Shown: in pieces, positions 28,893 through 32,765 of the stretch
Layout of the letters: each line of letters opens with the position of its first letter
Numbering within the stretch: position 1 is the stretch's first letter
Made by a program: the position numbers and the translations under genes
Notes under the pieces: model-generated
Told to the model about the DNA's origin: nothing
Databases searched by the model: none
What the model saw: only the letters and a program-made list of their open reading frames with translations
Assembly: GCF_900163565.1 (NCBI RefSeq)
Contig: NZ_FUHU01000026.1
Coordinates: 1 to 64,000 of the forward strand
Direction of reading: 5' to 3'
Length of the DNA: 64,000 nt
Source: Agrococcus casei LMG 22410
GTDB lineage: Bacteria; Actinomycetota; Actinomycetes; Actinomycetales; Microbacteriaceae

Positions 28893-30338
28893 ATGCGCTT
28901 TCTCGAAGATCGTCCCGAGCACGACCTGACGTATTCCGACGTGTTCCTCGTTCCGTCGAAGTCCGACGTGGGGTCGCGATTCGCGGTCGATCTCGCACCC
29001 GATGACTCGACTGGGGCGACGCTGCCGATCGTGGCCGCCAACATGAACTCGGTGACAGGCCCGCGCCTTGCCGCAACCCTCGCGCGTCGCGGCGGGCTCG
29101 CTGTGCTCACACAGGACTTCGACGAGCACGACACCTTCGCCTCGATCGACTGGGTCAAGCGCCAGTCGACTCGATTCTCGTCTCCTTATACTGCGTCGCC
29201 CGACGAGGCCGTTTCTGACGTGCTGCGCAGGCTGCCCGCGGTCGAGGGCCATGTGCTGTGCGCCGTCGACGAGTCCGGCGAGTTCATCGGTGCGATCCCT
29301 GCCGCCCGGCTCGGGCAGTCGTTGGCGGATGCGCAGATCGGCGACCTGCTGCACGGCAAGATCCCGCACATCACCGAAGACGAGGCGGCAGAACCCCGAC
29401 AGGCCTTCAGCCGCCTCTCCGAGCTCGATGTCGAAGCGGCGCCCGTCGTCGACGGCAACGGGGTGCTCGTCGGCGTCGTCAGCCGACACGGCAGCCTGCG
29501 CAACGAGATCTACAAGCCCGCCGTCGACAGCCAGGGCCGTCTGCGCGTCGCAGCTGCGGTCGGCGCCAGCGGCGACCCCGGAGTGCGCGCCGCGCGACTG
29601 GTCGAGGCCGGCGCCGATGTCATCGTCGTCGACACAGCCCACGGGCACCAGCAGGGCATGCTCTCTGCTGTCGAGGCGGTCCGCTCGGCGGTCGGCGACG
29701 ACGTGGCAGTCGTTGCGGGCAACGTCGTGACCAAGCAGGGCGTGCGAGACCTCGCGTCAGCGGGCGCGAGCGTGCTCAAGGTCGGCGTCGGGCCCGGAGC
29801 CATGTGCACGACTCGCATGATGACGGCCGTCGGCAGGCCGCAGTTCTCGGCCGTGCTCGAGACGAGCGAGGCGGCGATCGAGGTCGGCGCGCGAGTCTGG
29901 GCAGACGGAGGAGTGCGATACCCGCGCGATGTGGCGCTCGCTCTTGCCGCCGGCGCATCGAGCGTGATGATCGGCTCGTGGTTCGCCGGCACGATCGAAG
30001 CGCCCGGAACCCTGTTGCATGACGATGAGGGCCGCATCTTCAAGGAGAGCTGGGGGATGGCCTCGACCAAGGCCGTCACACAGCGATTCGGCGGCCTCGA
30101 CCCATTCGACCTGGCTCGCAAGACGATGTTCGCAGAGGGCATCTCGTCGTCGCGGATCATGCTCGACCCGCTGCGGCCGAGCCTCGAAGACCTGCTCGAC
30201 ATGATCACGACCGGTGTCCGCTCGTCGTTCACCTACGCGGGTGCGGCCACCGTGCCCGAGTTCCGTGAGCGAGCCGTCGTCGGCATCCAGTCGGCTGCCG
30301 GCTATGAAGAGGGCAAGGCGCTGCCGGTCTCCTGGTAG
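28893..30338 (+). CDS. guaB1: GuaB1-family IMP dehydrogenase-like protein (GMP reductase with CBS domain)
   Basis: 481 residues of the IMPDH/GMPR fold. The N-terminus TYSDVFLVPSKSDV and the first barrel strand come first, then a CBS-pair insertion (about 95-220). The catalytic loop GPGAMCTTRMM places the nucleophile at Cys305, and WADGGVRYPRDVALALAAGA and MIGSWFAGT bind the phosphate. The mycobacterial GuaB1 clade has been characterised as a GMP reductase, returning GMP to IMP, which is the likely role here rather than IMP dehydrogenase. ATG 28893 fits a -10 element six bases upstream. Confidence 0.88.
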   Translation: MRFLEDRPEHDLTYSDVFLVPSKSDVGSRFAVDLAPDDSTGATLPIVAANMNSVTGPRLAATLARRGGLAVLTQDFDEHDTFASIDWVKRQSTRFSSPYTASPDEAVSDVLRRLPAVEGHVLCAVDESGEFIGAIPAARLGQSLADAQIGDLLHGKIPHITEDEAAEPRQAFSRLSELDVEAAPVVDGNGVLVGVVSRHGSLRNEIYKPAVDSQGRLRVAAAVGASGDPGVRAARLVEAGADVIVVDTAHGHQQGMLSAVEAVRSAVGDDVAVVAGNVVTKQGVRDLASAGASVLKVGVGPGAMCTTRMMTAVGRPQFSAVLETSEAAIEVGARVWADGGVRYPRDVALALAAGASSVMIGSWFAGTIEAPGTLLHDDEGRIFKESWGMASTKAVTQRFGGLDPFDLARKTMFAEGISSSRIMLDPLRPSLEDLLDMITTGVRSSFTYAGAATVPEFRERAVVGIQSAAGYEEGKALPVSW

Positions 30339-30344
30339 CGCGAA

Positions 30345-30373
30345 ATGACCCTGTGCCGAATCACCTGTAGAAT
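30345..30373 (+). promoter_or_regulatory. Promoter ATGACC-N17-TAGAAT of the CNNM operon
   Basis: -35-like ATGACC at 30345-30350 and -10 TAGAAT at 30368-30373 are 17 bases apart. GTG 30380 follows after six bases, so the first codon of the transcript would be the leader peptide start. Confidence 0.65.
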
Positions 30374-30379
30374 GAGCCT

Positions 30380-30421
30380 GTGAACGACGACGACCATAGT
30401 CCTTCTTCCTCGACCGCATGA
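30380..30421 (+). CDS. 13-codon Asp-rich leader peptide coupled to the CNNM gene
   Basis: GTG 30380 opens MNDDDHSPSSSTA, ending at TGA 30419-30421. That stop overlaps the ATG 30418 of the transporter gene (ATGA). The start lies six bases after a TAGAAT -10 element, so it would be read from a leaderless mRNA. The transporter ATG has no ribosome site (the preceding bases are CTTCTTCCTCGACCGC), so its translation probably depends on ribosomes ending this peptide. Three Asp codons in a row near the N-terminus are of the kind reported to weaken ribosomes at low magnesium. Regulation is inference. Confidence 0.6.
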   Translation: MNDDDHSPSSSTA

Positions 30422-31728
30422 ACGAGTGGGTCTTACTTGCCTTGGGCATGGTGCTCTCTCTGGGCACAGGAATCTTTGTTGCGAGCGAATTCGCGCTAGT
30501 CAACCTCGACCGCAGTGACCTGCAGTCGCGCCGTGACCGCGGAGAACGCGGCCTCAACCACACGATCGCGGCGCTCAAGCACACGTCAACGCACCTGTCG
30601 AGCGCTCAGCTCGGCATCACGCTGACGACACTGCTGACCGGAGCCACATTCACACCGGCCATCGAGACGCTGGTCGGGCCGCTGCTGAGCGGGTGGGGGC
30701 TGGCCGACGGCACAGCGCTGATCGTCGCAGCCATTCTCGGCGTGCTGCTCGCGACGCTCTTCTCGATGCTGTTCGGTGAGCTGCTGCCGAAGAACCTGGC
30801 ACTTGCCGTGCCGCTGGCCACCTCCAAGGTGGTCGCTCCGCTGCAGCGTGCCTTCACATTCATGTTCAAGCCTGCGGTGCTGCTGCTGAACGGCTCTGCC
30901 AATGCGATGCTGCGCGGCATTGGCATCGAGCCCAAAGAAGAGCTCTCGGGCGCGCGCACTCCCGAAGAGCTGGCGTCGCTCGTGCGACGCTCGGCGATGG
31001 AGGGGTCGCTCGACGAGAACGCGGCGTCGCTGATCTCGCGCACGCTCCACATCACCACCCTCTCGGCAGGCGATGTGATGACGCCGCGCACCCGGGTCGA
31101 GTCCATTGACCGCGAGTCGACTGTCGCCGATCTCGTCGACCTGGCCCGCACATCCGGCTTCTCTCGATTCCCGATCGTCGACGGCGACCTCGACGAGGTC
31201 ACGGGCATCGCACACCTCAAGCTCGCAGTGGCCGTTCCGCGCGAGAAGCGCGCCAGCGTCCCGGTGCAGGCCATCGCTACAGACCCCGCTCGAGTGCCAG
31301 AGTCGCTCGAGGTCGAAGTGCTGCTCGGCGACCTGAAGGAGCGCGGCTACCAGCTGGCAGTCGTCATCGACGAGTACGGGGGCACGGCCGGCCTCGTGAC
31401 CCTCGAGGACTGCATCGAAGAGCTCGTCGGCGAAGTGAGCGATGAGCACGACCGCATGCGCGTCGACGTCGTCCACGGCCCCGGCTGGCTGACGCTGCCG
31501 GGTCTGCTGCGTCCCGACGAGGCCCGCGAGAGAGCCGGCCTCGAGATTCCAGAAGACTCTGAGTACGAGACGGTGGGCGGATTCATCATGAATGCCCTCG
31601 GCGATGTTCCGACGGTCGGCGACGAAGTCACGACCCCACAGGGCAGGCTCATCGTCGAGCGCCTTGACGGCCGACGAATCGATCGCGTGAAGTTCATTCC
31701 GCATCCGGTGCTGGAGAGGGAGTCATGA
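30418..31728 (+). CDS. CNNM/CorC-HlyC family ion transporter
   Basis: 436 residues. The N-terminal DUF21 membrane domain has about four hydrophobic segments (VASEFALVNLDRSDLQSRR, then SAQLGITLTTLLTG, LFGELLPKNLALA). A CBS pair follows (DVMTPRTRVESID to EYGGTAGLVTLEDCIEELVGE), then the C-terminal CorC/HlyC domain (VGGFIMNALGDVPTVGD). Relatives move magnesium or other divalent ions. The absence of a ribosome site and the ATGA overlap with the leader peptide suggest coupled translation. A second CNNM gene follows with another ATGA overlap, suggesting a heteromeric pair. Confidence 0.9.
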   Translation: MNEWVLLALGMVLSLGTGIFVASEFALVNLDRSDLQSRRDRGERGLNHTIAALKHTSTHLSSAQLGITLTTLLTGATFTPAIETLVGPLLSGWGLADGTALIVAAILGVLLATLFSMLFGELLPKNLALAVPLATSKVVAPLQRAFTFMFKPAVLLLNGSANAMLRGIGIEPKEELSGARTPEELASLVRRSAMEGSLDENAASLISRTLHITTLSAGDVMTPRTRVESIDRESTVADLVDLARTSGFSRFPIVDGDLDEVTGIAHLKLAVAVPREKRASVPVQAIATDPARVPESLEVEVLLGDLKERGYQLAVVIDEYGGTAGLVTLEDCIEELVGEVSDEHDRMRVDVVHGPGWLTLPGLLRPDEARERAGLEIPEDSEYETVGGFIMNALGDVPTVGDEVTTPQGRLIVERLDGRRIDRVKFIPHPVLERES

Positions 31729-32765
31729 GCGACTGGATGGGAATCGTATGGCTCGTCGTCCTGCTGCTGATCAACGCATTCTTCGTCGGCGCCGAATTCG
31801 CCGTGATCTCTGCGCGTCGCTCGCAGATCGAGCCGAAAGCCGATCGCGGGTCGAAGGCCGCGGGCCTCGCGCTGAAGGCCATGGAGAATGCGTCGCTGAT
31901 GCTCGCAATGTGCCAGCTCGGCATCACGGTCTGCTCGCTGCTGATCCTCTACGTCTCTGAGCCGAGCATTCACCACCTCCTCGAGGTGCCCATGCACGCC
32001 CTGGGATGGAGCCCGCAGGTCATCTCGGTCGTCGGCTACGCGGTCACGCTGCTGCTGGTGACGTACCTGCACGTCGTGTTCGGCGAGATGATGCCGAAGA
32101 ACGCGTCGTTCTCGATGCCGACCCGTGCTGTGCTGCTGCTGGCACCGCCGCTGGTGTGGATCGCGCGTGTGTTCAAGCCGATCATCTGGCTGCTCAATGC
32201 GATCACCAACCAGATGCTGAGGCTGATGCGCGTCGAGCCCAAGGCCGAGGCGAACACCGCATTCACGCTCGACGAGGTCGAGACGATTGTCGAGACCTCG
32301 AAGCGCGAGGGGCTGCTGTACGACCGAACAGGCGCGCTTGCGAAGACGTTCGAGTTCACGAACCGCACCGTCGGCGAAGTCGCGATTCCGACCGCCGAGA
32401 TCGTCACGCTGCCGCAGGGGGCGACGACAGCCGATGTCGAGGCTGCCGTTCGAGAGCACGGCTTCTCGCGCTACGTCGTGGTCGACGGCGATGACGAGCC
32501 GGTGGGCTACCTGCACCTCAAGGACGTCATCGACGCCGATGACGAGCAGAGCGCGCTTCCGGTCAAGCAGAAGCGCGTGCGACAGCTGATCTCGGTCTAC
32601 TCCGGCAGCGAGCTCGAGGATGCCATGCAGCTGATGCGATCGAGCGGAGCGCACATCGCGAAATCGTTCGACGCTGACGGCCGGACGACCGGGCTCCTCT
32701 TTCTCGAAGACATTCTCGAAGAGCTTGTCGGCGAGGTGCGCGACGCGACGCGGAGGCTGAGTTGA
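31725..32765 (+). CDS. CNNM/CorC-type ion transporter, short form
   Basis: 346 residues, paralogue of the preceding protein. The DUF21 membrane domain (VGAEFAVISARRSQIEPK, QLGITVCSLLILYV, FGEMMPKNASFS) and a CBS pair ending in GLLFLEDILEELVGEV are present. The C-terminal CorC/HlyC domain, about 80 residues, is missing. ATG 31725 is in an ATGA overlap. Side-by-side long and short CNNM genes are common and may form a heterodimer. Confidence 0.9.
   Translation: MSDWMGIVWLVVLLLINAFFVGAEFAVISARRSQIEPKADRGSKAAGLALKAMENASLMLAMCQLGITVCSLLILYVSEPSIHHLLEVPMHALGWSPQVISVVGYAVTLLLVTYLHVVFGEMMPKNASFSMPTRAVLLLAPPLVWIARVFKPIIWLLNAITNQMLRLMRVEPKAEANTAFTLDEVETIVETSKREGLLYDRTGALAKTFEFTNRTVGEVAIPTAEIVTLPQGATTADVEAAVREHGFSRYVVVDGDDEPVGYLHLKDVIDADDEQSALPVKQKRVRQLISVYSGSELEDAMQLMRSSGAHIAKSFDADGRTTGLLFLEDILEELVGEVRDATRRLS

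Follow-up and report, generated by a model that had tools for sequence, protein, structure and literature searches.

What a 13-codon open reading frame with a run of Asp codons does between a promoter and the start of a CNNM-type transporter gene is the question raised by positions 30345-31728 of the DNA analysed here, a stretch of 64,000 nucleotides of Agrococcus casei LMG 22410 (contig NZ_FUHU01000026.1; the window). An earlier note on this sequence had read the frame as a leaderless upstream open reading frame (uORF) that could report magnesium by altering how many ribosomes reach the transporter start. The locus was compared with its counterparts in the genus (Agrococcus), family (Microbacteriaceae), order and class, and this reading was weighed against other explanations.

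Sequence sets and controls

The genus set consisted of the best match in each of 24 genomes. The family listing covered 100 genomes of 84 genera and gave 110 places, or 108 once two that belong to the genus are set aside; 18 of these were left out as low-scoring or second copies and 90 were used. With seven family loci from the order-level listing added and L116 removed, the family set held 96 loci; L116 was dropped because a contig end had shifted its start, although an MDDPP start was nonetheless found there. The order set comprised 60 of the places listed, minus L156, which had an odd start, giving 59. The class set had 23 loci, three of them repeating order-level genomes and 20 new. Feature counts take the last uORF called at each locus, and by this rule L210 was counted by another frame despite its MDDPP frame. 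Because the genomes share ancestry, the counts are not independent events.

Candidate leaderless genes (141, from two family genomes and the window) served as control; they were called by pattern, as long ORFs with GC3 of at least 0.8 and TAnnnT 5-11 bases before ATG or GTG, and are not mapped starts. A background of 991 long ORFs was taken from two family genomes (400 kb each) and the window.

Organization of the window locus

A sigma-70-like promoter, ATGACC-N17-TAGAAT, lies at 30345-30373 on the + strand, with its -10 hexamer at 30368-30373. It agrees with the consensus at 9 of 12 positions and was the sole promoter-like match in 29800-30700, the mean for shuffled sequences being 0.1. A six-base spacer (GAGCCT) separates the hexamer from the GTG at 30380, which opens the 13-codon uORF (30380-30421, + strand; GTG AAC GAC GAC GAC CAT AGT CCT TCT TCC TCG ACC GCA TGA). 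Its product is MNDDDHSPSSSTA, read as V(M)NDDDHSPSSSTA and then stop, with three Asp and one Pro (residue 8) in 13 codons. The Asp codons 3-5 (30386-30394, + strand) form an acidic head and are followed by the U-ending codons CAT AGT CCT (H-S-P; 30395-30403, + strand), the retained part of a genus motif AGT CAT AGT CC. The uORF ends in an ATGA (30418-30421, + strand) in which its TGA (30419-30421) overlaps the ATG of the transporter gene (30418-30420), and the transporter is read in a different frame. The consensus scan, the sequence and the frame translation thus agree with the earlier note on the promoter, the GTG six bases after TAGAAT, the 13 codons with Asp at codons 3-5 and the stop overlapping the transporter ATG. 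The note had also called the uORF leaderless; the spacing between the -10 hexamer and the start codon fits this description, and the uORF is presumably leaderless, its 5' end being placed from that spacing alone.

The transporter gene (30418-31728, + strand) encodes 436 aa with CNNM, CBS and CorC_HlyC domains, all above Pfam cut-offs, and its relatives in the PDB are solved structures named CorC and CBS-containing hemolysin. By family membership the product is probably a Mg2+ exporter. A second CNNM/CBS gene of 346 aa (31725-32765, + strand) begins at a further ATGA overlap at 31725, so that the uORF stands first in a coupled chain. Upstream, also on the + strand, there is an IMP dehydrogenase-type gene. 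No Shine-Dalgarno (SD)-like word was found directly upstream of 30418 in the window (TCCTTCTTCCTCGACCGC). The earlier statement that the transporter has no ribosome site holds for the window and does not extend to all relatives, since a G-rich, SD-like word precedes the transporter start at 44 of 73 family loci with MDDPP-type leaders; at these loci the transporter could be initiated independently.

Conservation of the uORF in the genus and family

A promoter-linked uORF overlapping the CNNM start was found at 24/24 genus loci, 88/96 other family loci and 44/59 loci of the rest of the order. The same rule applied to dinucleotide-shuffled upstream regions gave expectations of 0.4/24, 3.4/96 and 1.0/59, respectively. 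Judged from these counts, a conserved, start-coupled uORF in front of the CNNM gene is almost certain.

All 24 Agrococcus orthologs carry a promoter-linked GTG uORF, commonly of a form like MNDDHSHSPEPEPIG followed by a stop codon. All 24 genus loci have 6 or 7 bases between TAnnnT and the start; in the family the spacing is 9 or 10 at 74 of 88 loci, which would imply a 5' leader of about 0-4 nt. Stop-end offsets are mostly +4 or +8 (21/24 genus and 69/88 family uORFs); in the genus the stop ends at +4 relative to the aligned transporter start in 21 of 24, and in L089, L092 and L096 it lies 5 bases before the aligned start, with an ATGA at an alternative start 9 bases upstream. The uORFs range from 11 to 53 aa and their sequence drifts past residue 6 while the overlap with the transporter start is retained; this range of lengths and this drift make a trans-acting small protein unlikely. 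An in-frame N-terminal extension of the CNNM protein, or a frameshift, was rejected as the general layout because the window uORF is in another frame and the relatives use several registers.

Among the eight family loci that escaped the rule, L182 has a GDPPS frame and L199 a DDPPS frame, both without a matching -10; in L171, L198, L218, L224 and L225 the promoter-linked start is that of the CNNM gene itself, and L219 has neither an acidic-head frame nor a promoter-linked CNNM start. In some lineages the CNNM start is promoter-linked and there is no uORF.

The acidic start of the leader peptide

DD or DE occurs within residues 2-5 of 22 of the 24 genus uORFs. In the family, 65 of 88 uORFs start with MDDPP, and 68 have two acidic residues and two prolines at residues 2-5. 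At least two acidic residues at positions 2-6 are present in 22/24 genus and 78/88 family uORFs, that is 100 of 112, compared with 23 of 141 candidate leaderless genes (Fisher p 1.7e-33, in a test that ignores shared ancestry). With a looser measure, at least two D/E and one Pro in residues 2-12, the figures were 22/24 for the genus, 86/88 for the family, 20/44 for the order and 38/141 for the control. The start of the peptide is, by these comparisons, the conserved part of the leader. Order-level leaders have at least two acidic residues at positions 2-6 in 11 of 44 cases and a basic residue there in 20, and the two nearest relatives of the window genome have a single Asp (MNDCHHSPWPIAA, then stop).

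The 73 MDDPP-type leaders have D at residue 2 in 71 cases and at residue 3 D in 66 and E in five; the third-base entropies of codons 2-5 are 1.10, 0.71, 1.02 and 1.72 bits. The pattern M[DG][DEHG]PP used to select these leaders fixes PP, so that their third-base variation is informative and their PP is not.

The uORF, its acidic start and the overlap with the CNNM start are therefore kept in the genus and family, and the lack of conservation that the earlier note had named beforehand as telling against its reading was not found. The DDD run that it had pointed to is not kept: among the 24 genus genomes it occurs in the window genome only, and the conserved core is DD (or DE) and DDPP.

Association with CNNM genes and a natural fusion

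A promoter-linked MDDPP start (TAnnnT-N9/10-ATGGAYGAYCCNCC) occurs at 60 sites in 100 whole family genomes, 58 of them no more than 260 bases upstream of a same-strand CNNM match; read backwards, the same pattern gave no site in the 100 genomes. The two remaining sites are in G076, where a CNNM match lies 13 bases from the contig end, and in G045, where the CNNM match lacks its first 53 residues, and for these reasons both loci may be split by assembly. The second CNNM copies L226 and L227 likewise carry an MDDPP leader. A promoter-linked uORF of any kind overlaps an in-frame start in 20 of the 991 background ORFs, and two of these uORFs have at least two acidic residues at positions 2-6, namely the window uORF and one 74-aa frame.

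In genome G064 (locus L225) the MDDPPS head and the CNNM transporter form one continuous frame (MDDPPSAELLLLIAGLLLTVGTGLFVA), the sole such case among the family loci examined. This fusion suggests that ribosome passage over the head matters whether or not a separate peptide is made.

No DD-type leader was found at Mg2+ importer genes, namely five MgtE loci (one cut by a contig end) and six CorA loci of 11 genus genomes. Two of the six CorA loci (L342 and L343) have short promoter-linked uORFs, MTDFREGPRDAHR and MGDLTRPR, each followed by a stop and ending near a CorA start.

Proposed role of the leader

We propose that ribosomes would load at the 5' end, on the GTG at 30380, and would first make an acidic, Pro-containing peptide, some of it encoded by U-ending codons. 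Ribosomes that come through this stretch would stop at the TGA that overlaps the transporter ATG and start again on that ATG. Conditions that make ribosomes unstable, most probably low cytoplasmic Mg2+, would increase drop-off in the acidic head, so that fewer ribosomes would arrive at the ATGA and less exporter would be made; at high Mg2+ the exporter would be produced. In this way the leader would gate, like a toll, the expression of an operon that encodes two cation exporters of the CNNM/CorC type.

That the head limits ribosome passage is fairly probable. Mg2+ as the signal, suggested by analogy with known leaders, may be right or wrong with about equal probability, and we give an even chance to the reading as a whole, in which drop-off in the acidic head gates the coupled CNNM exporters. 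The magnesium sensor of the earlier note is thus supported in part, by the conservation of the leader and by a family head like that of MgtL, and a role for Mg2+ is plausible on that analogy. Evidence against a Mg2+ gate comes from the one-Asp nearest relatives, the window leader with no more than one Pro, the non-acidic order-level leaders, the low yield at class level (2 of 20 loci), the lineages that have no uORF, the SD-like words and the MgtE and CorA genes without a DD leader.

More tentatively, and with somewhat less than even confidence, ribosome stability may be how actinomycetes gauge cytoplasmic Mg2+, with a leaderless acidic/Pro head of U-ending wobble codons gating a coupled exporter; as part of the same tentative proposal, the gate might be an exporter-side mirror of MgtL that works without an RNA switch. 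If true, this would be a very simple magnesium gate, made of a promoter, a dozen codons and an ATGA and working in leaderless mRNA. It would also give a clear prediction for CNNM/CorC exporters, and dozens of natural variants, the transporter fusion included, with which to probe the nascent-chain features that destabilise ribosomes.

Alternative explanations

Plain translational coupling would have the uORF only deliver ribosomes to an SD-less transporter start, its peptide sequence having no regulatory role. The conserved stop/start overlap, the window start without SD, the drift of length and of sequence after residue 6 and the many order-level leaders that are not acidic are all in agreement with it. 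It leaves unexplained the acidic residues and prolines at residues 2-5 across the family (68/88), the rarity of at least two acidic residues in candidate leaderless genes (23/141) and the survival of the head as a fusion in G064. We consider coupling alone rather unlikely.

The head might instead sense the state of translation factors, through EF-P or prolyl-tRNA at PP, or ATP/ADP through an EttA-like factor at the acidic residues. PP is present in 79 of 88 family uORFs, and in the parts of the cited papers that were available EttA relieves pausing at early acidic residues, those of MgtL included (PMC11282234), mgtP is sensitive to charged tRNA-Pro, and paired prolines cause stalling and require EF-P (PMC8092293). 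On the other hand, none of the 24 genus uORFs has PP, for which reason PP stalling was rejected as a core feature in the genus, and the cation-efflux family of the downstream gene fits Mg2+ better. Factor sensing is thus improbable.

Codon choice in the leaders is unusual. U-ending codons make up 35% of leader codons 2-10 in both genus and family and 22.5% in order-level leaders. For candidate leaderless genes the share is 11.5% in the two family genomes and 10% in the window, and over all long ORFs it is 7-8%. There is no such enrichment of A-ending codons (0.9% of genus and 9.8% of family leader codons, against 10-12% in leaderless genes); since the U-ending enrichment of Agrococcus comes without them, low GC alone does not explain it. 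CCT stands at codon 4 in 51 of the 73 MDDPP-type leaders and TCT at codon 6 in 38, compared with 4.5-7% of Pro codons and 2.5-3.5% of Ser codons, respectively, in genome samples. If wobble codons are decoded slowly at a stage when the nascent chain is still short and acidic, this would favour drop-off. The 17 Agrococcus leaders that are 15 aa long have AGT CAT AGT at codons 6-8, apart from a single leader that differs at codon 6. AGT CAT AGT CC was seen to be near-constant in L084-L104 although AGT is a rare Ser codon.

The same positions could be read as parts of an RNA-level device, in which a pyrimidine-rich head (GACCCUCCUUCU in many leaders), presumably resembling the 3' end of 16S rRNA, pairs with the transporter SD, or a factor binds to the AGUCAUAGUCC stretch. 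Codon 4 ends in a pyrimidine in 71 of the 73 MDDPP-type leaders, and this, the nearly invariant AGT CAT AGT and the SD-like words at 44 of 73 loci would be expected of such a device. Against this, the leader heads did not pair more strongly with their own SD than with swapped ones (-12.4 and -12.6 kcal/mol, a weak test because both parts are nearly constant), and nine loci with 32-40 bases between the two starts lack a GGAGG-like word although MDDPP or MDEPP is retained in them. Folding was also close to that of shuffled sequences (mean z +0.37 in the genus and -0.11 in the family), and an Rfam scan of 12 loci at the gathering threshold, among them the window CNNM locus L081, gave no leader or M-box match and one tRNA only, leaving an RNA device very unlikely.

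Comparison with known leaders

The acidic head as a brake on ribosomes has its closest counterpart in MgtL, the leader of mgtA in Salmonella and E. coli. According to the available parts of the papers cited, ribosomes on MgtL drop off at EPDP (residues 2-5) under limiting Mg2+ (PMC11282234, PMC11552253), EttA counters this drop-off (PMC11282234), and MgtL acts through Rho-dependent transcription termination and raises the importer at low Mg2+ (PMC11552253, PMC11282234). The two are alike in being short leaders before a Mg2+ transport gene with acidic residues and Pro at residues 2-5; EPDP and the family DDPP have the same composition, and the family MDDPP is nearer to EPDP than the window peptide is. 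Unlike MgtL, the leader described here has a stop that overlaps the start of an exporter-family gene and a predicted effect of opposite sign, and no unusual RNA folding was found for it. Because the downstream gene is CNNM/CBS/CorC_HlyC and not the importer gene mgtA, we class it not as MgtL but as a leader that would work like one.

On the exporter side, the accessible text of PMC12421838 describes a ribosome-destabilising sequence in the N-terminal region of E. coli CorC (YbeX) itself and the induction of corC and mgpA by increased Mg2+, and the available parts of PMC12421838, PMC11552253, PMC11282234 and PMC9718836, taken together, link the CorC family of genes with Mg2+ efflux. As far as the available text of PMC9718836 goes, the destabilising effect of acidic chains is offset when Mg2+ is high. 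CorC and the present system thus share a CorC-family gene, a sequence on the ribosome path and an expected expression at high Mg2+ (PMC12421838, in part), and the G064 fusion (MDDPPSAELL...) has the CorC layout. They differ in that the head described here is mostly a separate uORF and that a CNNM membrane domain is present in the transporter but not in CorC.

The YoaL leader overlaps the upstream region of mgpA (yoaE), and MgpA is fully translated only if the YoaL start codon is present (PMC12421838, available parts). The similarity is that a leader overlaps a gene with a CorC domain that serves in Mg2+ protection; mgpA, however, is an enterobacterial TerC-CBS-CorC gene, and the comparison concerns the layout. 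In the portion of PMC8092293 that was available, early acidic residues in mgtQ of Salmonella lower its translation; mgtQ too is a tiny ORF with early acidic residues that acts on a Mg2+ transporter gene. There, in contrast, alternative stem-loops free the mgtB ribosome site, and poor mgtQ translation raises the transporter. In the literature covered, which includes few subscription papers and in part only excerpts, no such CNNM leader was described in actinobacteria and no ribosome-destabilising leader was found for the phylum. The nearest case is the M-box upstream of pe20 in M. tuberculosis, according to the available text an actinobacterial magnesium-linked leader with a conserved small uORF (PMC12810186); it differs in being riboswitch-dependent and in its downstream gene, and no M-box was present in the 12 loci scanned here.

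Leaders outside the family

Similar leaders were seen in Acidipropionibacterium and Actinomyces (MDSDSCSRQSAEPPP..., MDSDSCGRQSADPPP...), Brevibacterium (MTSDSPCRREAG...), Sanguibacter (MTADDDLSRHMCSP...), Arcanobacterium (MDDDTWSIC, then stop), Trueperella (MTDDDVPAAVTPVC, then stop) and Planctomonas (MDDPPSHMPSP...). Acidity is not universal, as the complete Oerskovia leader MKSKPRYPWSTPW illustrates. In the class set the promoter rule found a uORF at two of the 20 new loci (L311 and L327). Other class-level loci have frames ending at the CNNM start, such as MSTPPDDPPSRRVAPSRSGAT and stop, without TAnnnT at the tested spacing, and these could partly be due to chance. Related-looking leaders in other families of the class, MDSDSC..., MSTPPDDPPS... 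and MKDSDDAGC..., would suggest, under the more tentative proposal above, that the gate may be as old as the class.

In one class family (f36), nine CNNM loci (L312, L314, L315, L317, L318, L319, L321, L323 and L324) have a very uniform frame, MKDSDDAGCSSGRPTRAEAPAGVDR with a stop and similar forms, ending at +4 behind an SD-like GGAAGGGATC; this frame is perhaps an SD-led relative of the leader. Many of the mostly mycobacterial CNNM loci L031-L080 share a different stretch, GTGCCGCAGGCAC, up to about 170 bases upstream of the match. It often follows a purine-rich word and reads MPQAPVEA... or MPQARVEA...; it might be a further leader of the CNNM gene, in this case an SD-led one.
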